This document shows positions 1,970 to 28,983 of a stretch of DNA of 64,000 bases, in pieces. The position numbers and the translations under genes were made by a program. Every line of letters begins with the position of its first letter. Within the stretch, counting starts at the first letter, position 1. Source of the DNA: Polychytrium aggregatum. Taxonomy: Eukaryota > Chytridiomycota > Chytridiomycetes > Polychytriales. Under the pieces are notes generated by a model. That model did no database searches. It saw only the letters and a list, made by a program, of their open reading frames with translations, and was not told the origin of the DNA. The DNA is taken from NCBI RefSeq assembly GCF_025602895.1, contig NW_026516322.1:62001-126000 (forward strand). The letters run 5' to 3'.

Positions 1970-3663
1970 TTGGGCCGGCGCTTACCCCCCTCCAAGGAAG
2001 AAAGAAACGCTTCCGATTTGGGAGAGCGACGAGACTTGTTGAGAGAGTTCAGGAGATGTTGCAATCGGCCCAGCAATCGTTTGGGACGACATAAATCATC
2101 TGAGCAAGACTTTGCGATCTGCAGCAGGGAATATTTCCTGAATATCATCCAGCAGCCAAACAGTGTGCGATGCTGCGGCTGGGGCCGCACGACCGATATA
2201 CGCCCTGTCGATCCTCCGCCAATTCTTCAACTCTTCGTCAGAACCCCTGACGGATCAATCTTGAAAAGGTCAAGACTATTTTGGTGCCTTCGGTGACGCT
2301 GCTGGTTGCCGGTGCTGGGCGTTGGTGTCTGCTCCCGCATGTGCGTTGCGTTGATACTTGGTTGGGGATATTGCAGTTGCCTCGCCGTCCGTCCTCGTCG
2401 TCCGTCTTCGCTGTTCGTTCCTGTGTGCTGCTGTTGCCGATCCATCTCGATCCCTCCGAGTCTTGTTGAGGGCAGCGGCGTGTGTCGAGTCCATCGAGGA
2501 TTGTGATGGTTCTCCTTCCTGCTTGCAACTGTTCCTGCTTGCGATTGTTCCTGCTGTGTCCTGCGACTCTGGTGCTCACCTCCATGGCCCTTGCGGCCCA
2601 GTCCGTCGCCTGGCTTGGCTGAGAAAGCGGCTGCCGGCTGCCTGCGACCCTGGTCGTCTGGACGATTTGCATCTGCATGATTTGCGTCGGCATCTTCTGC
2701 GTTTGCATGATTTGCATCTTCTGCCTCGGACCGAGGCCATCCGACCACCCACCCTGGTCTCGACTGCGTGTGCCGCTCGACCACCTCGACCGAATGGCTT
2801 GGACTTGGCCTTCCTGCAGACGGACTGTCTGGCTCTCTTGCACCGTCGAACGCATCGTCGAGCGCGGCTTCATCAGCTGCGCGAACAACGATTCTTCGAC
2901 CGCCTGGGTTCTCTTGGCTGTCGTGGTCGACGATCGACACGGCAGAATCGACACGGCAGAATCGACACGGCAGAATCGACACCTTGCTGATGGCAAGGAC
3001 AGATATCATCACAGTCAGCACGGGAATCATCGTCAACGGCACAGTCATGGCCAGGATCACCGACGCTGCAAGTGCATCCAAGTCACTTCCCTGTCTCATC
3101 GGCAAGGCTCGTTGCGAACCATAACCCCCGCCGACATTGCCTCGTCCCCGATTCGCTTGCATCTGCCGCACCGGCCACCGCACTTGCTGCTGGTCCTCGC
3201 CTCGTCTGCAACGACAGCTGCTCGCTGCTTGTTCGCTGCTTGCTCGCGATATGTGCCTTGCCGTTGGTCGTCGATGTGCCCTCCAGTCGCAGCATTCGAG
3301 CTGTGGCATCGAGCCGGGCCGCCAATGCAGCAAGCATCAATCCAAGCAAGCGCAACATCGGTGCATCGTCGGTGCATCGTCGGCATGGCGTTGATGCGAC
3401 CAGGAGCAGATGCCGGGGATCGGTGCACCACGAACTCGACACGGCGGGAGCTCGATATCCCACCAACAGCTCGATATCCCACCAACAGTCGAATATGCCA
3501 CCAACAGTCAAATATGCCCAACAGCAGCCAGAAGCGAGTGAGCAATCGGCTGGTCGCCACAGGATGCCCACAATATCCGGCACCAGCCACAATCCAAAGA
3601 CAACATAGACAGCAATCGACAGACGGCCACTGTGTCGGAGACACACTGCCGAACAACAACAAT

Positions 3664-3719
<56 letters not shown>

Positions 3720-6700
3720 CCCCGGCACGCTTGATCAAAACGGAATCGGCAGCAACCACGACGATCCAGATGCCTCGACGCAACTTTCCTCCGCTTGACG
3801 ATGCGTCTGTCGATGGGCCGGATGCTCCAATTCGAATGGCTGTTTCGGAGAACCTGGTCGCTGGATATCGGCGAGCAACGATGCCGTGATGAAGCCGTGA
3901 CGATGCCGTGACGATGCCGTGACGATGCTGCGACAGACTCGCTGACACCTGTGACTGATCCGGCGATGCCCGAAACCGATCGGTTGACGATCAAGATCGA
4001 GCTACCGACATCCCAGCAGAGAACCAGGCCATCAAAGCAGCCGATCATTGTCCAAGAGAGTCGGGTGTCTGCCGTCCAAGGTGGTCGAGTCGAGGCAGGT
4101 CAAGCGGTCGAAGCTGGTTGGCACCAAGTGTCCATTCAATCGATCCCCTGCAAGCCAGGACGGCATCGGGAATCGAAGGGCCCAGGGCTGGCTGGCCGTG
4201 TGGGATCATCGAGCTCGGTCGCCTGTGGAAACAGCAGCACCGAGTTGATCGGCACGAGACAGGAGACATGCGACGAGGCCGCAAGGAACCGGGGGTGCGA
4301 CGGACACCCAGGAGTCGGTGCTGATGCTGATACCGATGCCTGCCGATGCCTGCTGATGCCTGTTGATGCCTGTTGATGCCGTGGACGTTGGATCCGTTGT
4401 GCCGAGACCCGTTCGTCCCTCCATTCCTTCCACATTTCATTCATTCATTTCTTCCTTCCACCCCCTCCATTTCTTTCATTTCTTCGATTCCATTCGTTCC
4501 TTCATTCCTTCCTTCCTTCCTTCCATTTCTTCTTCCTTCCGTGCTTCATTCTTTCGTCCTTGCCACATCGCCCGCACCAGTCGAGTCCCCACATCACCGC
4601 CGACACCATCGACACCCCATCGGCACCACCCACCACACCCACTGCGATATCCTGCCTCCTGCCTCGCTCCCAACGGCCCTCCTCCTCCTTGCATTCACAT
4701 ACCTCGTCAATGTGGATTGCACATCGGGCCGGCTGCTTGCTGCATGCATTCCTGCCTGGCTCGTTCGACCAACCAGCCGTCGTTCTTCGCCAGCAATCTT
4801 GGTCGTGTCGACCGGCCTGGTGCTGCATCGGCGATCATGGCATTCTGTTTGTCATCTCTGATGTCCCCTTGGCAATCCCCGATGCTCGTTTGTCGATCCC
4901 TGGTTCTCTGTCGGCGATCCTGGTGTCCCGTTGACCCACATCTGCTTCTCGGCCACGCTTGTTGATTTGCTCCCTCCATCGGCCCTCCCTTGATTTCGAC
5001 GGGTCTCTGGTCTGCGCGCCAATGTCTTGATCCACCAGCTGGTCTCTGGTGGTCTCTGGTGGTCTCTGCGAGTCTGGCTGGATCAGCGGACCGACGGCTG
5101 GCGGACTCACAGCAGCATCGGAGCCTTGTGGTGGTGTGGACTGAGGCAGCCACGACAGCGGCGGCAACAGCAGCAAACAGGAGCGGGATGGGGCGGGGTG
5201 GTGGGTGATACGATGCGATACGATACGATGCGACGGATGCGACGGATGCGATGCGACGGATGCGATGCGAGATGAGGAGAGAGAGGATGCGGCTGAATGG
5301 GAGCAGACACCACGATGGGCGAGGCGACGGTGCCGTTTTGCTGACTGGCCGACTGACCCGATTCTGCTCTCTTGTTCCCGCGCACGGATGCTCTCACCAC
5401 CGGCTGGTGCAATATGCAACAACGGTCTGGATCGATCATCCGCATCGTTCGTCTGGATCGTTCGTCTGGATCGATTGTCCATATCAACCCATCGGCGGCA
5501 ACCGGAATATCAACCACAACAACCACAACCACAACAACCACAACAACCGCAACACTGCTCTGAACGGCACCATGCCTTTCTCGGACTGGCTCCTCATCTG
5601 CAACACTCGCACACCAACATCTGCACCGGATGAACTGCCTGGTCAATCCACCACGGACCCCGAATCGGCGTCTCCATCAACCACTTGTCGCATCGAACCA
5701 CCCGGTTCTGATGATCCGACAACCGTCTGATACCGACACTGAATCACTAACTGCCTGATACCGACGCCACTTGCGGTTGTGTGGATCATTCGCTGCCATC
5801 TGGCATTCACCACTGGCATTCACCATCTGACATTCACCACTGACACTCACCATCTGACACTCGCCACTGACACTCACCATCTGATGTTCACCATCTGATA
5901 CTGGTCACATACCGTCGACCCTGTATCGCCGCGAATCGGGTGTGCTGGTCCAACAAACGTTGGATGCACATCCACATCGCGCTGCCGCCGACATTGCACT
6001 GATACTGGATTCATCCGACACTGGCTTGTTCTTGCGCTCATTCACTGATGTCGACAACTGGCAATGGCCAACACCTTCACGCGAATGCAACTGGGTGTCT
6101 GCTCATGCCGATGCCGACGTGCTTGCCGATGTGCTTGCCGATGTGCTTGCCGATGTGCTTGCCGATGTGCTTGCCGATGTGCTTGCCGATGTGCTTGCCG
6201 ATGTGCCTGTCGATGTGCTTGTCGATGTGCCTGTCGATGCCAACGAACCCCTGTTGTCTCTGGGCAACGCTCGACAACACTAACCACACCGTCATCGATG
6301 CCGGTGCTGGCCATCGCTATCACTTCCCGGCCATCGCTATCACTTCCCGGCCATTGCTGTCTCTTCCCGGCCTCGATTCGCCTTTGCACTGTCGCCGTGC
6401 GTCTGTCTGTCTGTCTGTCTGTTGGTCGATCGGTCGGTCGGTCGTCTGCAACTCATTCCTTCCCGACTGCTTGCCGTGTTTGGCCTCGATCTGTTTGCAT
6501 GCCAACCATCTGGACTGTATGCTTCGATCTGCTCCGTCCGGGCCTCGCCGACTGCTGCGACGGCTGCCTCAACTCGCTGTTTCGGTGGTCCTCAACTCGC
6601 TGTTTCGGTGGTCCTCAACTCGGCATGCCTGGGTCGATTCAACTCATCGCTCCGGGCACCCTCGACCAATGCCACCACGGCTGGCTCGACCGATCTGTCC

Positions 6701-9649
6701 TTCGCAAACACCGCCCTGCTCGTCCACAGCCCGCACGATCTCGGCGAGTCCGTCAAGTTCATTGCACACGTCAAGCTGTGGTCGCTGGACGGCGACGTCG
6801 ATCACAGCCTCGTTCCGAGACCAAAGTCAACCAAGCGAGGATCAGCCTCCGACACATCCTCGGGAATCCATCCAACATCGAGCTCAGTTGCGGTGACGAT
6901 CGGTCCGCCGGCTGCACCGCCGGAAGCCGAGGGACACAGCTCGTCGTCGAGTCTGGCTCCAAGCACAGCATCGGGACTTGGGCCGGAGCGTCCGGCGCAG
7001 CCATCGACCACAGAGCCGAGCCAAGAGCAGCGAAGCGTCCCGCTGCATCTGGCCATGTTCGGCACGCTGGTGTCGCAGGCCTACTTCCTGTCGGACATGT
7101 CGGATGAGCAGGGAGTGTTCTTCATCTTTGACCAGGTGTGTGTCCGGATCGAAGGGCGGTTCCGGCTCAAGTTTGTCCTCAACGACCTCGATCAAAGGTG
7201 AGAAGCACGGGCGAGGGCGTCGGGTGGTATGCACGGGACTCGAAGGACGATCAAGATAAAAGAAATGCGAGCGCTGATGGCAAATGCGAATGAGATCTGT
7301 AGCGGTACCGCAGGAGGTTGCGGATGCCCCGGACAACGGGTCAAAATACGAGGGTTGGAAACACATGAACCCATGCAGCAAATCGAGAGCATGCATCCAG
7401 TGATTCTGGATGAGGGCGGTTCGCCAGCGTAGCGAGATAAGGAACCGCTGGGGCCGATGCTTCCGGAGGCGAAAGTACCAAGACCGACATATCTACAAAT
7501 GAAGGCTCACGGATATCGAGCGAAGAAGCCGAGGTGTGGCGCAATGGAGTCTGGTTCACTTCGAATAGCCACATAATGGCTACCCGTGGGAGGAAGATTC
7601 AAGCACAACTGCACAGCGGAACTTGTGGCGAATTGCAGAGCACGAAGTGATATCAGGGTATTCGAGATATCCACACGACCCGTGGATAGTATTCGGAACC
7701 GACCCGACTTAACTAACCATTTTGTGTAATCATACCAAAGTATAACCTCAGGAGGAAGGGTATCCCCAGCCCTCACCACAACGATCAGCCAGCCATTCAC
7801 ATCGTACGGCTGGAAGCAGTTCCCCGGAATGCAGCGTGAGTACCCATGGATGCTCAACAGTCTGGTGTCTCCAAACGAGTCTCTCGGTGCGAGTCTGCAG
7901 CCTGGCTGCTGGTTGCTGTGGTTGTGGTTGTGGCTATGGTTTTGGTTGAGACTGTGCACTGGCTGTGGTGCAGGAGCACTGCGAAGGTGTCGGTGACATT
8001 GGTCTGGTCTGGTCTGGTCCTTGCCTCGGCACTTTACATCCCACATCCCACATCCCACATCCCACCGCACATCTCGCTCGACTACCCTCTGTCGGATTGC
8101 CGTCGTCCCTCCTCATTCAAATGGACATTGGTGCCGGGTGCACTGCACGGCACCGCACCACACTGCATCGCATGGTGTTCCAGCCTGCCGACGTTGGCGT
8201 TGGCTGTGGCTGTGGCTGTGGCTCGAGAACATGGTGATTGTTGCCACAGATCGGATGGTTGCCGTCACGGACCTGATGGTCGTCGCAGTGGATCGAAAAC
8301 ACGATCCTCGTCGTCGCCGTGATTGTGGATGCAGCCGTGGCCGTTGTTGTCGCCATCGTTGCGGCTGTCGTTGCGGCTGTTGTCACATCGAGACACATCG
8401 AGACACATCGAGACACATCGAGACACATCGATCCACACCGATCCACACCGATCCACTCACGGAGACAATCTCGGGATGAGGATCAGTTTGGATACGATCT
8501 GTGGCATCGCCCATGTCACTCAATCGCCCATGTCACTCGATCGGCCGTGGCACTCAATCGACAGCAACATGGACTGGCAGAGCAACATGGACTGGCAGAG
8601 CAACGGCAGTGACGCACGGAGCAGCATGCTCCAGCAGGCACCAGATCTGGGATGGCTGTCGAGGCATCTCCCCAACATCGACAACAGGGCCGGGATGGCA
8701 CGGACACTGCGGATGGTGTCGCTGTGTGGCATTGGATGTCAATGCCTTCTTGGTGACAACACTGTCGCGGAATTGGCAACGAGGCACTGGAACGAACGAG
8801 GAAGTCGCAGCGGAACGAGTCGAGGAAGTGTCTGAGACAACAACCAGACAACCAGAGGCAACCAGAGGCAACCAGAGGCAACCAGAGGCAACCAGAGGCA
8901 ACCAGAGGCAACCAGAGGCAACCAGAGGCAACAACAAGCAATCAGAGGCAACGACAAGCACACAATGCCTGGCTGGCTGCTCCACTGCCATCTGGTCTTC
9001 TCGGCCGTGGCTGTAGCATCGCCTGTGCAGCATCGCCCGTGCTGCCTGGATTCGGCCCCGCCCATGCTTCGACTCCCAGGGACTCGGGACATTGGCTTGG
9101 GCGACATCAAACCCGCTCAGCACCATCGACGCCACAGCACTCCACCCTCGCATTCCCCATTCCCCATCCCCACATCCCCGCATCTCTGCATCCCCTGCAA
9201 CACGCCACCTCTGCACTGGCGCCACGATACACATTCCACACCACATCCACATTCCGCACATCAGTGCCCCAGCGCACCCACAGTCCACATATCACACCAC
9301 GCGCCACATCCTCCCCCTCTTCACTCTCTCACTCCTTTCCCGCACTTTCGTTTCGGCCAGCGAGTTGCACATCACTGCACCAGCCAGCCACATCAGCAGA
9401 AGCGCCAGGTCCGCTGACTAACACAATCGGTCTCCTCTGCTTCCCCTTGCACTGACCACAACCACAACCACAACCACAACCACAACCACAACCACAACCA
9501 CAACCCTGGCAGTGACCTCGCCGATCACCCTGCGGTTTGCAAGCCAGGGAACCGGTCTGCTCATCCGCCAGGTGCAGCGGCGCTTCAACCCCCGCTTTGC
9601 CAACCCTCCAACATCGTCGCATCCCGCCGATCCTGAGAACGACCAGTAG
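1970..9649 (+). CDS. Velvet-domain regulator, copy 1 (four exons, giant first intron)
   Basis: Velvet proteins are fungal DNA-binding dimerising regulators that link development to secondary metabolism. Proposed exons are 1970-2268, 6730-7197, 7741-7835 and 9513-9649, summing to 999 nt (332 residues). Domain blocks appear in the family order. Exon 1 has LNIIQQPN and VDPPPILQL. Exon 2 has FIAHVKLW and the hallmark VFFIFDQVCVRIEGRFRLKF. Exon 3 has QPFTSYGWKQFPGMQ. Exon 4 has ITLRFASQGTGLLIR. Splice phases are 2, 2 and 1, exactly as in copy 2. Intron 2 has a CTAAC branch site near 7709-7717. The intron 1 donor (GTCAAG) is weak and that intron is 4461 bp of repeats, so efficient splicing is unproven. 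The true start may lie in an upstream exon, because both copies have AG just before the conserved YxLNxIQQP. Which velvet subfamily (VeA, VelB, VosA or VelC) is not resolved. Confidence 0.8.
3664..3717 (+). repeat. AGC trinucleotide microsatellite, 18 copies
   Basis: Eighteen perfect AGC units lie inside the first intron of velvet copy 1. Different frames would give polySer, polyAla or polyGln, but nothing supports translation. Confidence 0.95.
6116..6236 (+). repeat. 12-bp minisatellite (GTGCTTGCCGAT), about 10 copies
   Basis: Tandem 12-bp units, perfect in the middle and degenerate at the 3' end, where CTGTCGAT variants appear. The array lies near the 3' end of the giant velvet intron, about 0.5 kb upstream of exon 2. 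Confidence 0.95.
6309..6369 (+). repeat. 20-bp tandem repeat, about 3 copies
   Basis: Units of the type CCATCGCTATCACTTCCCGG, the last one degenerate. Followed by a short GTCT run at about 6405-6435. Confidence 0.85.
8382..8460 (+). repeat. 10-bp tandem repeat GAGACACATC and related units
   Basis: About five GAGACACATC units, then ATCCACACCG-type units. Present identically, inverted, in the right arm. Confidence 0.85.
8851..8930 (+). repeat. 10-bp tandem repeat ACCAGAGGCA, 8 copies
   Basis: Eight perfect units followed by degenerate ones (ATCAGAGGCA, ACGACAAGCA). The inverted counterpart (about 14311-14410) is 20 bp, or two units, shorter. This is the only length difference between the arms. 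Confidence 0.95.
9455..9506 (+). repeat. ACCACA hexamer tract just before velvet copy 1 exon 4
   Basis: About eight hexamers end a few bases before the proposed acceptor (CCCTGGCAG, exon starting 9513). They stand where a polypyrimidine tract would be expected. Confidence 0.9.
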
Positions 9650-10447
9650 TCCGCGGCTGCTGGCTCGGAGCGACTGATCATGCCAGACTCACCTTTCTGC
9701 ATCTATGATCACCCACTCGTGCTGCCATGATCAGCCAGCCGACCCCGACCAGCTGTTCGCTGGACTGCGATCGCCCGGCCATCGGCACATCCGCCGTCGC
9801 AACCACATCCTCCACTGCAACCCATCCGTGCAAACAGCTCGGCCATCCGATCACCCTGGCCGCGACGTCGCATCCACCTCTGTCTCTGTTCGCATCATCG
9901 CCAGGCCGACAATCACCGGCAACTCCTGCACCCGGCCTCGGTCCCAACCCAACGACACAACTCGCACCCAACCATCCCGACCTGCTCCTCTGTCTCGCTC
10001 ACCTGATCGATCGGCCGTCGTCAATCGCGGATCGCACATTGTCTGTTGTCGGATGTCGCTCGTCGACTGCACAAGCCACTCTGGCTCGACGGTCACTGCT
10101 TGGAACCAGCCGATCGTCGTCGGGCGAGCAGTCGGGTTGCCAATCCACAGGCTCGCCAATCCACGGGCCCTGACAACCCACGACCTCGGACGATCCAAGC
10201 AGTCCCGGACACGGCTTGGACAGGCCCAGTGTGCTGGTCAATAAACACCCACCTCGTTCCTCAACGGCGGTCGATCATCGACGACACCCGCGAGTCCGTG
10301 AACGGCCATCAGCGGCCTGTCGATGCGGGTTTGTATTCGACAGGGCGGTTGTGCAGGGACGGGACGGGTTCTGAGCAAGAGCGGTGGCCGGGTGTCTGCT
10401 GGGTCGGTGGATCGTCGACAACAGCCAAGCCTGTTCACGGAGACGGC

Positions 10448-10556
10448 AATCAACAGGACGAGCAGACGGATCAACAGGACGAGCAGACGGATCAACAGGA
10501 CGAGCAGACGGATCAACAGGACGAGCAGACGGATCAACAGGACGAGCAGACGGATC
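10448..10556 (+). repeat. 21-bp minisatellite, about 5 copies
   Basis: Tandem units containing ATCAACAGGACGAGCAGACG. Because the unit is a multiple of three, all frames stay open and give long false ORFs. Confidence 0.95.
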
Positions 10557-10720
10557 GAACGAGTGAATCGATCGGACCACCGACAACCAGAGCGACCGAT
10601 GGGTACAATCGATGGATCAATGTCGATGGAGGATCGGCAGTGACAAGTCGGCACAGGCAACGAACCGACCGAGAGCGGAGGCAAGTTGCCGCTTGGAACA
10701 TCTGCTCTGGATGTGGAAGG

Positions 10721-10787
10721 ACATCGACACCATCGCAGGACATCGACACCATCGCAGGACATCGACACCATCGCAGGACAGCACCGT
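10721..10787 (+). repeat. 19-bp tandem repeat, 3-4 copies
   Basis: Units of the type ACATCGACACCATCGCAGG in the spacer between the velvet genes. Confidence 0.9.
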
Positions 10788-13700
10788 CGCCACAGCCTGG
10801 AGGCATCTTCAGTGTCGCCAAGCACCCAGGGCAGTCGGGTCGACCTGCTCGCCCTCTGAGCGTTATGGGACGATGAAGTCAGGACTCGGAGGCAATCCAT
10901 CCAGCGGCGACGCTGATGGTGACGTCGATGCGGCACTGGTGGCGACGAGACCTGGAGAAAGCCACTGTCGACAAAGCAGGGATGTGGGCCAGACATCAGG
11001 CGACGGAGACAGCTTCCCAGGCGGACGGCATCTCTGGAGAGCGGAACAGACACGACAGATGAAACGGGCGAGACGAATCGCATCGGAGAGATGGACCGCA
11101 TCGGAGAGATGGACCGCACCAACGAGTCTGGCTGATCAACAGGCCAACAGCAGCCAGCAGCCAGCACGACCGACGGAGCAGTGGTCATATCGACTCGCTG
11201 CAGCGACAGACCGACCATCCAAAGATACAGAATCGTCGGCGATGTGGATGCAGATCCGTCCGATGACTGCTGGAGGAGCGAACGTCGGCGCAGACGCCGA
11301 TGCAACCAGGCACCGGTCGGGCTGGCAGCTGGGACAGTCAACAACCTGTCGGCCATGCAGCGAGCAACCTGTTGGCTGTCCAATGTCGATCAGCAACTAC
11401 AAACATCCCGTCAACACCCGCCCAGTCCTGGTTGCGAGCAGTTCTCTATCCGCGTGGACCTTGGAGTGTCGATACTCACTTGTCTCTTGGCCGAGCACGA
11501 TCCGCCATATTCAAGGGTAAGCCTCGCTCTCAGCACCTGGCTCCCTCACGACTGCTCTGGACACTCGGTCTCCCTCACGGCGACTGTCCTCTCGGCTGCC
11601 CTTTCGACTGCCCGTCCTGCTGGACGCATCTCAAGACCCACTCCACGGCTGGAGCATCGGCACTGCTCGCTTCCACCACCGACAGACAGCACTGGAGTTC
11701 ACAGTCGCAACTGCAACCACAGGCTCCGAGAGCCACAGCCTTCGATGAGCGTCGGTGCTTGGTGCCTGTCGCCTCAGAATAAGCCCTGCTTGCTCCCGGG
11801 GCGAGCTCTGGCGGCAGTCTCGGCTCGCAGCCAGCAGCAGGACAGGACCGAGCAAACATGGCAAGGGGCGACGAGACAACGGCACCATGCGCCACACGCG
11901 ACAACAGCCGTGTGGTTGGTCGGGGATGTCAAAGGAACAAGCCCGCCGCCACACGGGCGGCAGGTGCCAGGGTCGGTGGCAGGGTCGGTGGCAGGGTCGG
12001 TGGCCGAGATGGACGGTGCCATCGGTGCAGCGTGCGGGTCGGCATGGCATGGCGATATGGCGGTATGGCGGTATGGTCGTCGTGGCGAACAGGAGTGGAT
12101 GCTGGTCTGCGATGGCGATGCCATGTCCTGTCCACCACGACATTTCGGCTGCTGAAACGTGGTCCAGGCCCAAACGAAGGCAGCGGGATCCTGCTGAATC
12201 GATGCCATCTCACAGCCTGGCAGGCACAGGATCGGATTGCTGCAGCAAAGCAGACATCGGAGCGACCCCATGACGGGACAGAACTCGATCCGGCTTGGCC
12301 ACATGCAACCACTAAACAGCGGTGCGGACAATCCTTGCAATCCTTGCAATGACTGCCACCAGACCGATTCCGATGTCGCAGCTTTCCAGTTCCACGACTC
12401 ACTCGCCAGCCTCGTGATGGCAAGGCAGTGGTATCAAAATCTATTGATTTGTCTGCATGGGCTCGACAATCTTCAATGAATACTTTGCCTCCAAAACAAG
12501 TCTGTCCTTTTCACCTTACAGCCGACCGACTCTCTCGGGGATAGTTTCCCACAATGATGATCCCGAATCGCCTGTACCATGTGGAATTCGGGTTCTGAGT
12601 AGTTATCAAGTTCGTATTGTTTTTGACACGTCATGTACCTGACACAACTCCATTGTCACCAGTGTAGGGATGGACTGCAGCTTCATAGCAAAGTGAGCTT
12701 GGTGTCGATGCCCAGCATCTCGCTGTGGCGCAAGATGGACGCTGTTGGTCCTCGATTTCCAGAGCCGCATCATCATAATTGCCAGTGCTATGGCCACATT
12801 TCAAGTCGATCGTTGCCGCCGAGCTTCACCTGTGGCATCCAGGACATGATTCTTTCAGAAAGCTCTCTGTTAGTGCTCAGCAGCAGCAGGCCACTTCTCA
12901 GCCCTCACTGATGTACGCCATATGCGGTATGGGTGGTGTTCTCTCCAGTTGGCCACGCCCACTTCCCTCCTGGAACTGCCCGAGGTCTCCATCTCGGTGC
13001 CTCGATATTGGCTTTCATTTGGCAAAATACTCTGCTTCGATCCTCCTCCCCTCCCCTACTTTGCCTCTCAGCCAGCTCGTTGGCCTTGTTTCGACTTCAA
13101 CCGAGACTCCATGAGCTGTATTCGACCAGCAGACTCATCCAGTCAAGTCGATAGATTTGGAGAGTTGTTGCCTTTGTCCTTGTGTTTCGGAAAGGTGGCC
13201 GTCTCAATGGCGCTGTTACCACTAAGATATGTGAACATCACAGCCTGGCTGTGAATTCTCGATTGACACGGCAATCGTGGCTCATTTCCTTCCTCCTGGG
13301 TCAATGCAAGCAGCATCATGACGAAAGAGGCGAGTACTAACCGGAGGGATCCTGGGCCCTCTCGCTGTATTGGATGCGGATCAGCTGGATCTGAGCAAAT
13401 CAATGTCGGTCGGATGGAGACGGCCAAACAAGCTGTTTCCAAGCCGTTTCTTTGGCAAGGTTCAGCAATCTGCACATACGCCCTCCAACCCCTCTGAAAG
13501 CATCCCAGACCTGACAGACTCCGGGTTACTGGCGTCTCTATCGAGCCGAGCTTCATCATGAATGATGTGCCTATTGAGGCCTATCGATCGATTGCAACAA
13601 ATAGGGAAGGGTCTCAACAGCGACATTAGCATCTCGGCTCGACACCCCGGGGTCCCCACGCTCCGAGGGGGAGAGGACGGTCAATCCGATCCCCGGTCCG

Positions 13701-13823
13701 GAGGGCAGATGGATGGATGATTGTTGAGTAGCGGTCCGAGGAAATGGATAGGCGATTCTTGGGCTGTATTGCGCTCGGCGACAGTGCAGCCATCGGCGGT
13801 ATTGTCAAGTTGGAATATGCCCC

Positions 13824-16800
13824 CTATTGGGACGGAGCTCTCGATAGCCCTCTGCGCTGGCCTTGGCGGACGACGAGACTGACCCCTTGGTTGGCGAATC
13901 GGAGGGTGATTGGAGTTGTGACTTTTCAGGAACCCGAAAATGGATAGACCATTCCGTCGGTGAGCAAGTGGAAACGAGGGGGGAGCAGAATGATCGTCAG
14001 TCAACAGTCAACGCGGCTGCATCGGCTGACAGAAGCGGGCGGAGGAGGACGGGAGGAGTGGGGGAAGGGGGCAGAGGGCGGAATGGACTGCCGCTATCGA
14101 GTGGCAGCAAAAGTGCCGCTGGCGCATCGATTAATCGTCCTCGTGTGCGAGCTTTCGACTGCCAGGCAGTGAACACAGTTGCTGTCGCTTGACTAGATGC
14201 GAACAATGGCAAGGTACCGACACCTTGATGTCTTTGTTGAATCGTGATTGGAGCAACAGTATTCACGGCCGAGAAGACCAGATGGTAGTGGATCAGCCAG
14301 CCAGGCATTGTGTGCTTGTGGTTGCCTCTGATTGCTTGTTGTTGCCTCTGATTGCCTCTGGTTGCCTCTGGTTGCCTCTGGTTGCCTCTGGTTGCCTCTG
14401 GTTGTCTGGTTGTTGTCTCAGACACTTCCTCGACTCGTTCCGCTGCGACTTCCTCGTTCGTTCCAGTGCCTCGTTGCCAATTCCGCGACAGTGTTGTCAC
14501 CAAGAAGGCATTGACATCCAATGCCACACAGCGACACCATCCGCAGTGTCCGTGCCATCCCGGCCCTGTTGTCGATGTTGGGGAGATGCCTCGACAGCCA
14601 TCCCAGATCTGGTGCCTGCTGGAGCATGCTGCTCCGTGCGTCACTGCCGTTGCTCTGCCAGTCCATGTTGCTCTGCCAGTCCATGTTGCTGTCGATTGAG
14701 TGCCACGGCCGATCGAGTGACATGGGCGATTGAGTGACATGGGCGATGCCACAGATCGTATCCAAACTGATCCTCATCCCGAGATTGTCTCCGTGAGTGG
14801 ATCGGTGTGGATCGGTGTGGATCGATGTGTCTCGATGTGTCTCGATGTGTCTCGATGTGTCTCGATGTGACAACAGCCGCAACGACAGCCGCAACGATGG
14901 CGACAACAACGGCCACGGCTGCATCCACAATCACGGCGACGACGAGGATCGTGTTTTCGATCCACTGCGACGACCATCAGGTCCGTGACGGCAACCATCC
15001 GATCTGTGGCAACAATCACCATGTTCTCGAGCCACAGCCACAGCCACAGCCAACGCCAACGTCGGCAGGCTGGAACACCATGCGATGCAGTGTGGTGCGG
15101 TGCCGTGCAGTGCACCCGGCACCAATGTCCATTTGAATGAGGAGGGACGACGGCAATCCGACAGAGGGTAGTCGAGCGAGATGTGCGGTGGGATGTGGGA
15201 TGTGGGATGTGGGATGTAAAGTGCCGAGGCAAGGACCAGACCAGACCAGACCAATGTCACCGACACCTTCGCAGTGCTCCTGCACCACAGCCAGTGCACA
15301 GTCTCAACCAAAACCATAGCCACAACCACAACCACAGCAACCAGCAGCCAGGCTGCAGACTCGCACCGAGAGACTCGTTTGGAGACACCAGACTGTTGAG
15401 CATCCATGGGTACTCACGCTGCATTCCGGGGAACTGCTTCCAGCCGTACGATGTGAATGGCTGGCTGATTGCCGTCGCCAGACACTGCCCACCGACACCG
15501 CTTTCCTCGCTGTCGGCCGCAGGATGTTGATTGCCGACCGCCGTTGCCGACCGCCGTTGCCGACGAGCCGCCACCAAGTCGATCCAGTCACAGACATCAG
15601 CCAGGTTCGGGTTCGGACGCCACAGCGCACCGTCGAGTGCCAGCATGTTGTTCCAGATCCAGCCCCGTCGATCGCGACCAAGATGCGAGGATTGGGCGGA
15701 TGGAGATTGGATCCAGTTCGTCAAACGTGGCATGGTGTGAGATGTGATGTGGTGTGATGTGATTTGGTGTGTGGGAGATGTGTTGCGCGATGCGATGCGA
15801 TGTGCCGCACGTTGCAGGGTTGAGTATGCATCAAGCACATGCGAGCGATATTGTGTTCGGTTGTGTCCATGTCGGCGGTGCGGTGGACAATCACAGCAGA
15901 TAGAATTGGTTGCGCCGGCCATCGAGCCGAGCCGTCGCATTGAGAACATGGCCAGTGCGGCCAGAATCAGCACGGACGAGAAACAAGAACCGCAGTGGTT
16001 AGATTGGGTGCAAGATGCGACTGGGATGGATATGGGATGGACAAGCAGCCAAGCGACCAGCCAGGCGGCTCCTCGAAGCAGCAATTGACATTGAGCAGGA
16101 TGGCGGGATGGTATGGTGGCATGGTGACATGGTGGCAGGATGGCATGGATTCGATCAGAAGGGATGGACGGAGGATTAGCGGCACGGAGGAGTCCCGTCG
16201 GCAGCGTACCTTTGCTGCAGATCCGTCAGGAAGAACTTGAGTCGGAATCTTCCCTCCATGCGAACATACAAGTCGCTGAAGACAAAAAAGACACCGGGAT
16301 CCCCTTCCATATCAGTGAGGAACAGCGAGTGCGAGACCAGGGTGCCAAACGCCAGAGTCGCAGGCAGGGCTTCGCTCGATTCATCTCCGGCTGGCTGTGC
16401 GAAAGATCGTGGTGTTTGCCGCTGGCTTTGGATCTGCCTTAATGCAAGGGCGTCTCGACTCGGCCGTCGGGAGCTTGCCGACGAAGAGGGAATCGTTTCC
16501 TCCCTGCGGAACTGTGGTTCTCCTTCCAGGCTCTCCTCGTCGCGGGTTTCGGCCCACAACTTGGCGTGAACAACAAAGGTTGCTGACTCTGGCATATCGA
16601 CCGGACTGAGATCGGGAAAATAAATATTAATAACCTTGTTCAGAGACATCGGAGGATCGGCAACCAGTACTCCTTGCTGCCATGTCTGTGGGTCACGGAA
16701 TGCGCTGTGATGTGGCTCTGTGGTCGTGGTGTTTGTGACATCGCTGTCAAGATCACCACCGTGCCGAAACCACCGTTGCCACTGCGGCTGCTCCTGGATC

Positions 16801-17415
16801 TCATGCTGTCATATGGAAGGAGCGAATGTAGCGGCAGAAGCCAGTCCTATGTCTCCGCTCGAACTGCTTTCGGCGGCGGCGAGTCTGTGACTCCTCAGAC
16901 GAGGCGCCCCACAATCCCAGCGGATGTCAATTTCGCTGCTCTCCTGCATACCTGCGCAATACACGCTCCTCGGAGGCTCTTGTAGATAGCTGCAAGATCA
17001 CCGGCGGATCGACAGGCTTGGGGTCTGTCAATGTGTCGAGGCTGCCACTCTTGGCTCTGTTTGGCTGCTGGATGACATTCAGCACATACGTCCTATTCGT
17101 AGCGAACAAAGGGTGCATGGAGATGTCAAACCCTACCGGATGGCTCCTGCAGATGCGAGCCTGCTCCGAACGACCGCCTGGCCTGAAACAAGTGGCCGAC
17201 CCTGATGGATATGCATCCCCCTTGGCGCCTCCCCAAGCCCGCCCAGCTCTCGTTGCGCAGAGTCGATCGATTCCAAGCTGCCAGCCGCCGCTTGGGAATA
17301 ACCGGTCGACTTTTGACCCGGCCTCAGGATCGCCACCCAACACTCTGCCCAACTCCTCCTGTCCGCTCGCCCAAACACCTTTGCCCTGTTGACCCAACGT
17401 CGGCACTGTCGACAC
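13824..17415 (-). CDS. Velvet-domain regulator, copy 2 (four exons)
   Basis: Paralogue of copy 1 in opposite orientation. Proposed exons are 17415-16952, 16605-16210, 15509-15418 and 13921-13824, summing to 1050 nt (349 residues). Family blocks in order are LNVIQQPNRA and VDPPVILQL (exon 1), FVVHAKLW and VFFVFSDLYVRMEGRFRLKF (exon 2), QPFTSYGWKQFPGMQ (exon 3) and ITLRFANQGVSLVVR (exon 4). Splice phases 2, 2, 1 match copy 1 exactly. Introns are 346, 700 and 1496 bp; the last contains the right arm of the inverted repeat. Exon 3 equals copy 1 over its last 17 codons and diverges abruptly before that. About 95 residues upstream of the domain are Gly/Arg-rich. The start at 17415 is the first ATG of the open frame, but a separate upstream exon is possible (AG before the conserved TYVLNVIQQP). 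Confidence 0.85.
14264..15469 (-). repeat. Right arm of 1.2 kb near-perfect inverted repeat
   Basis: Reverse complement of 7784-9009 (coordinates sum to 23253 outside the variable array). It occupies most of the last intron and the last 52 bp of exon 3 of velvet copy 2. The arms are separated by about 5.25 kb. Confidence 0.95.
16080..16150 (+). repeat. ATGGTGGC-type degenerate repeat in velvet copy 2 intron 2
   Basis: Short degenerate repeats of GATGG(C/T)ATGGTGGC within the second intron of velvet copy 2, just downstream (on the minus strand) of exon 2. Confidence 0.6.
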
Positions 17416-19118
17416 AAGGCTACATTATCTCGCAGGCACTCACAAAGCCGACCAAAATGTGCTCTGACCGCTTGTGACGCCGGGCAAGACTCGGCTTACG
17501 ACAGCGCACAAGTGTCGCTCTCTTTCAAGTGCAGCAGACCAACGCCGTCATCACAGCCGTGGCATTTTGCAGCTCGAGAGGCACCATAAAGCAAAGCGAG
17601 ACCACTTGTACATGCACTTTCCCTCGTCCAGCCCGTTGTCGGTTGTGTTCTGGAGTGCTTACCTCTTGGACTGTTGGGATTTGGCGCTTCGTTCTCGCTG
17701 TTGTACTGTGGCGGACATCTTGGGACGGGCGATGGGAACGAAGTTACCGGCACACCTTTGCTGTCCCAAGAGGGCAATGTAATTTGGAGGGGAGGGGCCA
17801 GGCGAGATGCCCAAGTTTCTCCTTGGTGTTGTGACCCTGGGCGCCACTCGCGGAGAGTCCAGCGCCGGCTCACGACTATTGCCCCTCGAAACTGCCTCGA
17901 TCGCCTCTGCGTCCGAGAGAGCAGAGATGCCGAGACGGTCGCTCGGACGGCATCCACAGCAACGTCGCCTGCCGATCCTGTCGCCGCCGTTTCTGCCTAC
18001 TTGCAAAGGGCCGCCAATTGACGGCGGCAACGGATCCGTGGCCAGCGAGGCCATGCAGCGGCGAGACAGGAGATTGGTGCAAGCGGCGTCACTTGTTGCC
18101 AGACGGGCGTGCGGCGATCTGCTTGAGGCAAGTGGGTCGCTGCGATCGGCCATACTCTTGCATTTAGTCGGGCATACCAGCGCGGCTGATTGCACTCGCC
18201 GCCGGCTCACCATCGTTTTTGCGACCGGGCTACCGTCGACTGTAGCGGAAACAACCACAACCAAACAAGAGAAGAAGAAGAAAAACATGCAACGGCTTGG
18301 GTCTGCGAGTGAGAATCGGCCGACAGACTCACGCCCAATGCGTCGGGTACAAAGCAGCCGCCACGCATCGCTTGGTCGATCAATACGGCTGTCTGCCGCT
18401 CAACCAGCGCTTGCGGGTGTCTCTCTCGAGTGTTGAGTGTTGGACGACGCCGCAGGCCTCCGATCAGCAGGCGGATTGACCATTGCCTCGAGCAGGTCTT
18501 GCTGCTCAGCGAGCAGCCTCACAATCGGTGGTCTGATGGGCCTTGGTCGGACCCCTGTTGCGGTTGCTGCCAGACAGCCCTGGCAGGACAGCCTCGCTCG
18601 GCCAGACTCCCTGCTTCTGGCTGGACTGCGTGGCGCCTCTCCGATCCGAGTTCCCGTCGGATATGTGCCGAGAGACCGCCCCGCTCATGGTCTCCAGCAG
18701 CGCCTTCTCCTGGCCGACAACAGCCATTCCTGGATGCGCGAACAACACCTGCGTGGCAGAGATTGCGCCGAGCCACATGAGTGGGTTTGCTCAGGCCAGC
18801 GCCAGCCGTGGCCCCCCATGGTGGCAGAAGCGCGCCGTGGTGAGTCACAGGGCGGGCGGGCGGCGGATCCTGGCTCTGGCCAAAGCGGCGCCGCCAATCA
18901 CACTGCAGCAGGCTCTGCGCTGTATGGCTGTGGTCTCTGTGGCCTCGGCGGCTGGCCGTGCACCAATCGCGGCCGGGCGGGGAATTGTGCGCTCGTGCGC
19001 TGGCGGTGGAGGGCCTGGCGCGACAAGGCAGCATCGGCGTTGCCAGCCAGGCCCAGCGAGCGACGCGGTGCAGCGCGTTGGTGAGGGGAGGACGTGGGGA
19101 GGAGGACGTGGGGAGGAG

Positions 19119-24093: not shown

Positions 24094-25445
24094 ATCTGTT
24101 ATTCGGAGCAGGCTGGGGGAGGCAGAGTTGCAGGGATCGAGAAGCAAGTGGCGGGAAGACTGCCTCGTGGCAGTATATAGCCAGCGGGTCTATTTTTGAC
24201 CTCCATGTATGGCACGATGATATTTTTAGATCGCATGGCCGAACGCAGCGAATGGTCATCGGCAAGCTGGAATGACCAAACAGCCAAACCTCATCGCTCA
24301 CTGATGGGCGGGCTGGAGCGGGTGGACTGGTTCGCCTCCGTCTACTCCGCACGACCAAGGCCGCTGGATTCCGCCAGGAACGAGGAGAGGGAGACACACG
24401 TTTGGATCTTTGCTCTCGCTGGTGCTCGGTTTTGGGTTCAGTGCAGTTCCTTCCTGGCTTCAGATGTCTGAAACTCGCTGACTGGCCGTAGGCCCCAGTG
24501 GGCAAGCCATGGGACTGCACTCCTGTCTTCGTTGGCAATCTCTTTGTTTTGGTTGGTTTGGGAAGCATGGTCTTGAATACACTCGGTCGATCTCCATGGG
24601 CGATGATCGACTGGCACCCAGGCCGCCTTCATCCACCCACGCCCAGGCTCGCAGGACAATCACCACGTTCGCCCAGGCCGGGTGGGCCTCAGCTGGACGA
24701 CCGCCGGAGAAATGCCTTGTCGTTGATTGGGCGGCGGGGCATCTCCCGGTCTCTCGCCTGCCGATTGGCTGCCCGTCGCCCCCCTGCATGTCCATCCTGG
24801 CCCAGCGCACATCATGTCTTGCATCATCTGATCGTGCAGCCCACATATCCAGTCTTGCTGTGGATCCCGTCTTCCAGCAAGAACGTCATACTGTATCCTG
24901 ACCGGCCGTCCCGCCGAACGGCAAGCCATCTGAAACCCCCCCCCAAGCGACAAGTTCCCGCTCGCCCGATATCAACTCGCGAGCCAGCCGACACCGGGTT
25001 TTGCGATCTGCACCCACAAGTCCTCTGATGGTCCCTGACGGGTTTCCTGGATCTTCCCGGGCTTCCCGGGCATGCGACGGTGATCCTCCTCATCTGCAGC
25101 AACCGAGGCCTCGCTTGTGTCCGCTGTGGGCGGCCCCTGTACTGAACAGCAGGGCCATCGCCGCCACAAGCTCAGATACTGACTGTTCTCACCTCCCTGG
25201 CTGGCGCCTCTCTGGCTGCCTCTCCGGTTGCCTCGGTGCCTTGTCCTGCTCCAGCATGTCGCATCAAACGCATCAAATGCTCTGACCAACGACCCTGCCT
25301 GGCGTGTGCAAAGGCCAACCGAGAGTGCAGTAATCCGTCGTCCATCCCCGCTCGCCGCCCGCCTGGAGAGCCTCTGCACACTTTCATTTGATCGCCGGCT
25401 CATCCGACCGCACATGAATCCCATAGGCTAGATAGCTTACGTCCC
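24094..25445. other. Divergent intergenic region between F-box gene and transcription factor
   Basis: 1.35 kb separating two divergent genes. It contains the left copy of a dispersed inverted repeat (24480-24615) and antiparallel frames without recognisable motifs, such as 25424-24972 minus. Presumably holds both promoters. Confidence 0.4.
24480..24615 (+). repeat. Dispersed inverted repeat, left copy
   Basis: Similar in reverse complement to 28462-28575. The best stretch (24551-24614, containing GGAAGCATGGTCTTGAATAC) matches 28525-28462 with scattered mismatches. The two copies flank the transcription factor gene. Confidence 0.7.
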
Positions 25446-28120: not shown

Positions 28121-28983
28121 TATACTTGCGGCTAATAGATCGAATACGACTGTTAATTTGGAGTGATGGTGATGAGATACTCTGCAATTGCTCTGCCGCT
28201 GGCTTTTACAGCGCTTCCGAAATGAAATGGGACACCCAGTTCCGAGCCGGGACTGATGTTATTTGCTGAGAACTGAATATACGCACCCACCAATCGCTCC
28301 CATGGCCAAACGGTGTGCTCTGAGTGACTGGAAGCCAAGCGACTCGAGAAAGCCCGCTATCTTGATACCAAGAACCCATGGAGCTGCCCAGAGGGCCGAG
28401 TGAAAGCATCACACTCCCACATCGAGTGAATGCACTACACTCCCACATCGAGACACCAATACCAATCGATCATCGCCACAGGACATCGACCAAGTGTATT
28501 CAAGGCCATGCTTCCTAAACCAACCAGGGCGGGAAACAATCGCATGGCCTGTCCACCGGGGCATACGGATCAGCAGACTTGTATCGTTTCTTTCTGGATA
28601 GACTGTATCGTCATAAATCCAAAGCTTCGCGTGGTCGTTCATCGGCGGCCAGGGGTTTCCTGTATCAGCTGCACCAACATGAGCTGCCAAACTCCCGGCG
28701 ACTGGCCATGTGTATTCGGGGCTGCGGTGTTCGTCATGGTCTGTTCTGTCGGCCATGTTCCAGGGCGGCTGGCTCGACCCGCGGTCATGTGACAGGTCGG
28801 CCTGGTATACAAATGCCCTTTTTCGCCCGCATTCGCTCTGGCGGACTCAGCTGCTTGCGGTCGCCAACAGACAGAACCCGCCTGCCCCCTCACCATCCGC
28901 ATCCGCCGCTACGAGTCCAAGGCAGCGAGGCCGTACCTCTACCCAAGAAACCAGCGTGCGTGTCGAATCCGGCTCTCTACACC
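28121..28983. other. Intergenic region between transcription factor and Doa10 gene
   Basis: Holds the right copy of the dispersed repeat (28462-28575) and a duplicated CACTCCCACATCGAG motif near 28410-28450. The Doa10 reading frame stays open upstream to 28579, but without recognisable content. Confidence 0.4.
28462..28575 (-). repeat. Dispersed inverted repeat, right copy
   Basis: Reverse-complement relative of 24480-24615. See that entry for the matching core. Confidence 0.7.

Follow-up and report, generated by a model that had tools for sequence, protein, structure and literature searches.

The stretch of DNA analyzed here (the window) consists of 64,000 nucleotides from the chytrid Polychytrium aggregatum, corresponding to bases 62001–126000 of contig C25 (137,036 bases) in an assembly of 64.7 Mb and 418 contigs. 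It carries two convergent genes, A2 and B2, encoding predicted velvet proteins, and a second convergent pair, A1 and B1, is located about 57 kb upstream on the same contig. These linked pairs very probably exchange DNA by ectopic gene conversion, and the inverted repeat detected between A2 and B2 in a previous sequence-only reading is the overlap between two longer tracts, one shared by B1 and A2 and the other by B1 and B2. The evidence comes from the architecture of the genes, from three shared tracts and from variants which the paralogues of one haplotype have in common. The second haplotype is represented by the allelic contig C90, which is colinear with C25 across the compared stretch and differs from it by 451 substitutions in 125,356 aligned bases, plus 75 insertions or deletions (indels). 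All the sequence comparisons were based on the consensus of the assembled contigs.

Architecture of the velvet genes and their shared tracts

Both pairs have the same convergent arrangement on C25 (A1>, <B1 upstream; A2>, <B2 in the window), the exons of A1 spanning 7.27 to 13.17 kb and those of B1 19.55 to 16.15 kb. The exons and proteins were modeled from the sequence, and the Velvet domain was scored with Pfam PF11754 (cut-off 25 bits). The four spliced models are all open from the conserved velvet start to the stop codon, the start codons of A2, B1, and B2 being unsettled. With scores of 166.6 (A1), 157.6 (A2), 145.1 (B2), and 157.8 bits (B1) over positions 1–235 of the 237 in the profile, all four are predicted velvet proteins with a full-length domain above the curated cut-off. 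The top protein matches to A1 were P0001 and P0002, both named velvet factor-domain-containing protein of Polychytrium aggregatum, the latter being the public model of the C90 allele of A2. The joins between exons 2 and 3 and exons 3 and 4 in A1, as well as that between exons 2 and 3 in A2, agree with these two models, and the join between exons 1 and 2 over the 4.4-kb intron fits the homologue P0003, where one part directly follows the other. The acceptor of A2 exon 3 (AAAG) is of a rarer kind than CAG or TAG. Exon 1 is missing from both P0001 and P0002, and P0002, compared with window positions 7741–8100, overruns the exon 3 donor into the arm intron. The features of the window are as follows.

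2129..2268, + strand: A2 exon 1, conserved part; the exon 1–2 join matches P0003; start codon unsettled, about 20 nt near the start of the velvet match being the first part read
2222..7247, + strand: tract A, shared with A1 in the same orientation (A1 copy 56.7 kb upstream); runs from the final 47 nt of exon 1 through the 4.4-kb intron 1 and exon 2 to 50 nt inside intron 2
6730..7197, + strand: A2 exon 2, as in P0002
7248..7783, + strand: single-copy stretch; covers the remainder of intron 2 and the beginning of exon 3 in A2
7741..7835, + strand: A2 exon 3; acceptor AAAG, the same in the public model P0002
7784..12455, + strand: tract T, shared with B1 in inverted orientation (B1 copy 51.8 kb upstream); runs from the final 52 nt of exon 3 through intron 3 and exon 4 to about 2.8 kb beyond
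7784..9009, + strand: arm 1 of the inverted repeat, from the self-comparison and the six-copy alignment
9513..9649, + strand: A2 exon 4, identical to B1 exon 4
12456..14263, no strand: single-copy stretch U, which separates tract T from arm 2 and contains B2 exon 4
13824..13921, - strand: B2 exon 4, sequence model
14264..16259, - strand: tract B, shared with B1 in the same orientation (B1 copy 59.5 kb upstream); runs from the final 50 nt of exon 2 through intron 2 and exon 3 and includes most of intron 3
14264..15469, - strand: arm 2 of the inverted repeat, from the self-comparison and the six-copy alignment
15418..15509, - strand: B2 exon 3, sequence model
16210..16653, - strand: B2 exon 2, sequence model
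16952..17088, - strand: B2 exon 1, conserved part, sequence model; start codon unsettled

The near-perfect inverted repeat described in the sequence-only reading was recovered when the window was compared with itself by BLASTN: 7784–9009 aligned with 15469–14264 on the minus strand over 1226 columns at 98.04% identity, with four mismatches and one 20-base gap. This is the only long near-identical self-match in the window, the other three having 387 columns (60% identity), 163 columns (67%), and 65 columns (88%). Arm 1 includes the last 52 nt of A2 exon 3, which ends at 7835, and these match B2 at 52/52 positions, whereas the nucleotide identity between A2 and B2 is 64.7% in exon 1, 59.8% in exon 2, 57.6% in exon 3 ahead of the arm, and 67.3% in exon 4. 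The boundary of identity was thus correctly placed inside exon 3. The same repeat occurs on C90 (373958–375173 and 381596–380411), which argues against a one-off assembly error. The complete arm was found at six places, namely three loci on two haplotypes, the third locus being B1, 52 kb upstream and beyond the window.

At B1, the reported arms are the overlap between a 4.67-kb tract shared with A2 and a 2.0-kb tract shared with B2. Three such tracts were delimited on C25, and all of them are also present on C90: tract A (A1/A2, direct, 7416–12554 against 64126–69247, about 5.0 kb), tract T (B1/A2, inverted, 13395–18019 against 74455–69784, 4.67 kb), and tract B (B1/B2, direct, 16794–18809 against 76264–78259, 2.0 kb). 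Apart from the arm, tract T is present only at B1 and A2. The introns are far more alike than the exons of the same gene pair, yet exon 2 (A1/A2), exon 3 (B1/B2), and exon 4 (A2/B1) lie inside tracts. A1 and A2 thus match at 467/468 positions in exon 2 but only at 58% in exon 4, A2 and B1 at 138/138 in exon 4 (one base past the stop) but at 66% in exon 2, and B1 and B2 share every base of exon 3 and of the final 50 nt of exon 2, against 65% for the complete exon 2. In a listing of self-matches longer than 150 bp (word 20, E 1e-20) covering 126 kb of C25 and 130 kb of C90, each contig gave only two others besides the velvet tracts, of 170–176 columns at 86–89%.

The identity jumps sharply inside the exons, from about 58–68% to 98–100%, and all three tracts start in an exon, 47–52 nt ahead of a splice donor. 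The start of tract A is preceded by 31 fixed differences (64126–64221 on C25): the exonic bases ahead of this edge match at 63/93 positions, and those from the edge to the donor at 47/47. The distance to the donor is 50 nt (exon 2) for the start of tract B and 52 nt (exon 3) for that of tract T. Tract A ends 50 nt inside intron 2. If the 5' edges were placed at random within the exons, the probability of the three distances falling within 5 nt of each other would be 0.0013, and that of all three lying within 52 nt of the donor 0.023; with a post hoc test on three edges, this common distance of about 50 nt is regarded as a curiosity. Outside the tracts, the 5' flank of A2 with the first part of exon 1, the single-copy stretch of A2 intron 2, and the exon 1–2 region of B2 with its flank each match only themselves and their alleles.

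Variants shared by paralogues within a haplotype

In the core of tract A (64222–68190 on C25, the end being set ahead of a tandem repeat at 68195), A1 and A2 of the same haplotype differ at 6/3969 positions on C25 and 5/3967 on C90, and the alleles differ at 12/3967 (A1) and 13/3955 (A2). No fixed differences between A1 and A2 were detected among the 4006 columns of this core. The pattern in the core of tract A is that of ongoing ectopic gene conversion. In tract T, the paralogues differ at 9 (C25) and 19 positions (C90) and the alleles at 16 and 18; B1 and A2 on C25 are identical across 2710 bp. The corresponding figures in tract B are 6 and 4 for the paralogues and 5 and 5 for the alleles. 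Throughout the tracts, the paralogues are therefore about as alike as alleles, and they are more alike than alleles in tract A and, on C25, in tract T.

The site patterns, from which the exon 1 edge and two columns containing gaps and more than one base were omitted, point in the same direction. Substitutions common to the paralogues of one haplotype amounted to 15 (7 in tract A, 6 in T, 2 in B), against 3 crossed ones (2, 0, and 1) and 7 fixed between paralogues (2, 3, and 2), and 8 indels were shared, 3 crossed, and 1 fixed over the three tracts. Shared and crossed patterns would be equally frequent if they resulted from random phase errors. The excess of shared substitutions has a p of 0.004 by site; when neighbors with the same pattern no more than 20 bp apart were merged, it amounted to 9 against 3 (p 0.073). 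Tracts T and B both include the B1 arm and are not fully independent.

A second velvet locus shows the same pattern. A search for velvet genes in the genome yielded a palindrome on contig C112 and its allele C12, which are not linked to C25. The C112 arms (441405–448659 and 462953–455699) are identical over 7255 bp, with a spacer of 7039 bp and one velvet gene per arm. Those on C12 (23052–30173 and 37214–44319) show nine mismatches in 7123 columns, of which eight, in two clusters, occur only in one arm and one only in the other. Nine substitutions (seven when merged) and six indels separate the haplotypes, each being present in both arms, and no variants separating the left from the right arm on both haplotypes were found; by the usual criterion, this is arm-to-arm conversion. 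When this palindrome was added, the merged events amounted to 16 shared and 3 crossed (p 0.002). Sex chromosomes are known to carry palindromes with arm-to-arm gene conversion. The C112/C12 locus resembles them in its large inverted repeat and in its arms, whose similarity is greater within than between haplotypes, whereas the repeat in the window measures only 1.2 kb and gives no support for direct exchange between its arms. The stretch to the left of the C112 palindrome is linked with its spacer by another inverted repeat (438001–440207 and 449038–451244), which is at least 2.2 kb long and 99.9% identical; at least 354 bp of it is present on C12 within the stretch compared.

As regards the copies involved, the sequence-only reading proposed recent gene conversion between the arms rather than duplication of a whole gene. 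The first part of this proposal stands, since the exons of A2 and B2 outside the arms are only about 58–67% identical and the arms 98%, and the larger tracts carry haplotype-shared variants. The partners are another matter: the alignment of the six arm copies contains no substitution or indel exclusive to A2 and B2 of one haplotype, and direct A2–B2 conversion, having no supporting site there, was set aside as unsupported. Columns 772 and 773 are common to B1 and B2 of C90, column 1139 to B1 and A2 of C25, and column 1170 to B1 of C90 and B2 of C25. All four combinations of columns 772 and 1170 occur, which indicates that the arms have recombined. B1 looks like the hub of these exchanges. Transfer from B1 to A2 would be the favored direction, because the tail of A1, whose exon 2 matches that of A2, is its own and contains a short last intron.

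Several observations weigh against conversion. The paralogues of tract T on C90 are as different from each other as the alleles are, and tract B gives no contrast. When the whole of tract A past the exon 1 edge is considered (31 edge sites removed), the difference narrows to 15 and 9 positions for the paralogues of a haplotype, as compared with 16 and 17 for the alleles; beyond the core, this tract contains two fixed and two crossed substitutions, most of which are in a tandem repeat. The seven fixed paralogue substitutions persist over the three tracts. Near-identical copies could also have been blurred by polishing, only the consensus sequence being used, and the splicing is a prediction from sequence.

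Alternative explanations and a possible mechanism

The alternative which survives best, although it is unlikely, is a single recent partial duplication or replacement, by which the B1 tail was set beside A2 and the A1 core placed in A2, with no later exchange. The near-identity flanked on both sides by single-copy DNA and the fact that the tracts end in non-coding DNA would fit an event of this kind, and an initial transfer is needed in any case because the introns of old paralogues would not align. Without later exchange, however, fixed differences between the paralogues are expected, and the core of tract A has none; the excess of shared over crossed variants (15 against 3 substitutions and 8 against 3 indels) and arm columns 772 and 1170, which are in four-gamete conflict, also speak against it.

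That near-identical copies were collapsed or homogenized in the consensus during assembly or polishing is very unlikely. Assembled contigs are the sole data, and the C112 arms, identical over their whole length, do look like a collapsed repeat, but the same architecture was obtained on two contigs, the arms differ within C25, C90, and C12, and each copy is flanked by single-copy DNA. Polishing should moreover have blurred the haplotypes as well, yet the differences between them persist.

The sequence-only reading also suggested that recombination between the arms might flip the 5.25-kb spacer (9010–14263), which would exchange the 3' ends of both genes. Tract T does adjoin B1 upstream and A2 in the window in opposite orientations. 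The spacer nevertheless has the same orientation on both haplotypes, as does that of the C112/C12 palindrome, and a flip predicts a 3' end of B2 resembling that of A1, whereas no DNA match was found between them at E 1e-8 and B2 exon 4 is 65.3% like that of A1 and 67.3% like that of A2. With a single orientation at two loci and no likeness between the A1 tail and stretch U, a spacer flip was rejected, and its probability is negligible.

Equally improbable are introner-like or other mobile introns, in which the same intron would have been placed in several genes: long near-identical introns among differing exons are what they would leave, but the tracts also take in whole exons and intergenic DNA. 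The tract pieces searched were found whole only at these velvet loci, in a search which skips simple repeats and very common words; the other matches were short, mostly simple-repeat ones, together with one of 60 nt (85%) close to another velvet gene. None of the six long open reading frames in intron 1 and tract T had a Pfam match at E 0.01. On these searches, an introner or transposon origin was rejected.

Under the preferred explanation, ectopic gene conversion between the linked pairs, a break or a stalled fork would most likely be mended from the linked paralogue. Repair might begin by invasion at a conserved exon end, and copying would then proceed through the introns into non-coding DNA. 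Once identical, the long introns could support further conversion, and repeated exchange in each haplotype would hold the tracts about as similar as alleles, while the exons outside them remain diverged. The outer exons may have escaped either because the tracts halt once homology runs out or through selection against conversion of these exons.

The primate L/M opsin paralogues form a direct array and are alike overall. The velvet exons outside the tracts, in contrast, are about 60–67% identical, and one tract is inverted and crosses gene types, resulting in a chimeric gene. According to two papers on these opsins (PMC3213168; PMC3924837), gene conversion homogenizes the introns and selection keeps key exons apart; the likeness to the velvet genes lies in linked paralogues with introns much more alike than exons and conversion tracts that are mostly intronic. 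In Aspergillus, recursive ectopic gene conversion between linked paralogues is described in PMC12844118, again in one region of a fungal genome, with repeated conversion and raised substitution in the affected DNA. It was inferred there between species and genes, whereas the velvet case involves two haplotypes of one genome and borders inside exons. The template switching between inverted repeats reported in Saccharomyces (PMC8604942) likewise homogenizes inverted copies, but with short repeats and clustered substitutions there, as against kilobase tracts 52 kb apart here. By these analogies, the process would be intronic conversion of the opsin type, which is known, and the unusual part would be its product, a chimeric regulator. 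Among the titles listed in literature searches, none concerned gene conversion in velvet genes, and the words "Polychytrium" and "gene conversion" occur 0 times in the main text of the velvet phylogenomics paper PMC10845976.

The predicted A2 chimera and its genomic setting

A2 appears to be a chimera consisting of its own DNA-binding region, an A1-type middle part, and a B1-type C-terminus. The first part of its protein, outside the tract, is alike at 20/31 residues with A1 and at 20/31 with B1, while the protein encoded by exon 2 is that of A1 (156/156 residues) and that encoded by exon 4 is that of B1 (45/45). Judging by position, we read exon 1 as the DNA-binding region, exon 2 as the variable and alpha parts, and exons 3 and 4 as the beta part of the dimerization region. 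This would make it a case, seen on two haplotypes of an early-diverging fungus, of a chimeric transcription factor apparently built by ectopic gene conversion, the same process keeping kilobases of intron all but identical between genes that diverged long ago in their other exons. Trees of velvet genes drawn from whole proteins can mislead, because the parts of one protein may differ in their history.

Tandem repeats (MINISATELLITES) are concentrated in the tracts. In the window, 26 of the 35 tandem-repeat rows (score at least 80, some rows overlapping) lie inside the three tracts, which make up 11.7 of the 64 kb. Over 126 kb of C25, they occupy 2488 of the 22,152 tract bases (11.2%) and 920 of the 103,849 others (0.9%), their density being about 12 times higher in the tracts (2222–7247, 7784–12455, and 14264–16259 in the window) than outside them. 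At C112, the proportions are 12.1% in each arm, 1.6% in the spacer, and 1.2–2.2% outside. These repeats may either draw recombination or be its product. It is conceivable, although rather unlikely, that minisatellite-rich introns serve as recombination platforms on which velvet subdomains are shuffled, continually making new combinations of DNA-binding and partner-choosing parts; this idea arises because the tract edges fall near module borders. If such introns do drive the exchange, the shuffling of regulator modules would be directly testable, and the chimeric regulator and its link with minisatellites are the parts worth pursuing.

Two other properties of the tracts were dropped as arguments. 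The GC (guanine plus cytosine) content is 49.8–53.7% in the single-copy pieces beside the tracts and 57.5–61.4% in the non-coding tract parts, but GC-biased conversion was not retained, since the 5' flanks and the rest of the window also reach 56.3–61.4%. Allelic differences amount to 71/21,815 (0.33%) in the tracts and 96/58,253 (0.16%) in the flanks chosen; over all the named single-copy stretches between 3000 and 125000, the figure is 377/99,598 (0.38%), raised by one very diverged stretch, and without that stretch (C25:24001–32000) it is about 158/91,615 (0.17%). The apparent excess in the tracts thus depends on the flanks chosen (0.16% vs 0.38%).

A total of 78 exon-level velvet matches, which are not genes counted singly, were found genome-wide on many contigs of both haplotypes, suggesting that the velvet family may be large for a chytrid. 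One velvet gene is present on three contigs (loci L035 on C76, L036 on C223, and L037 on C85) at 99.3–99.8% across 2.5–4.0 kb; since three contigs exceed the two haplotype copies, one of them must be a recent duplicate or a redundant contig.

The window contains no transfer RNA gene detected by ARAGORN in its bacterial setting and no Rfam family reaching its gathering score. Upstream of the window, C25:24001–32000 (loci L011 and L012) diverges from C90 by 2.3–3.2% and accounts for 219 of the 451 substitutions in 126 kb; a very old or an introgressed allele might be responsible. Inside the window, a 65-base inverted match at 88% is present between 24550–24614 and 28462–28526.

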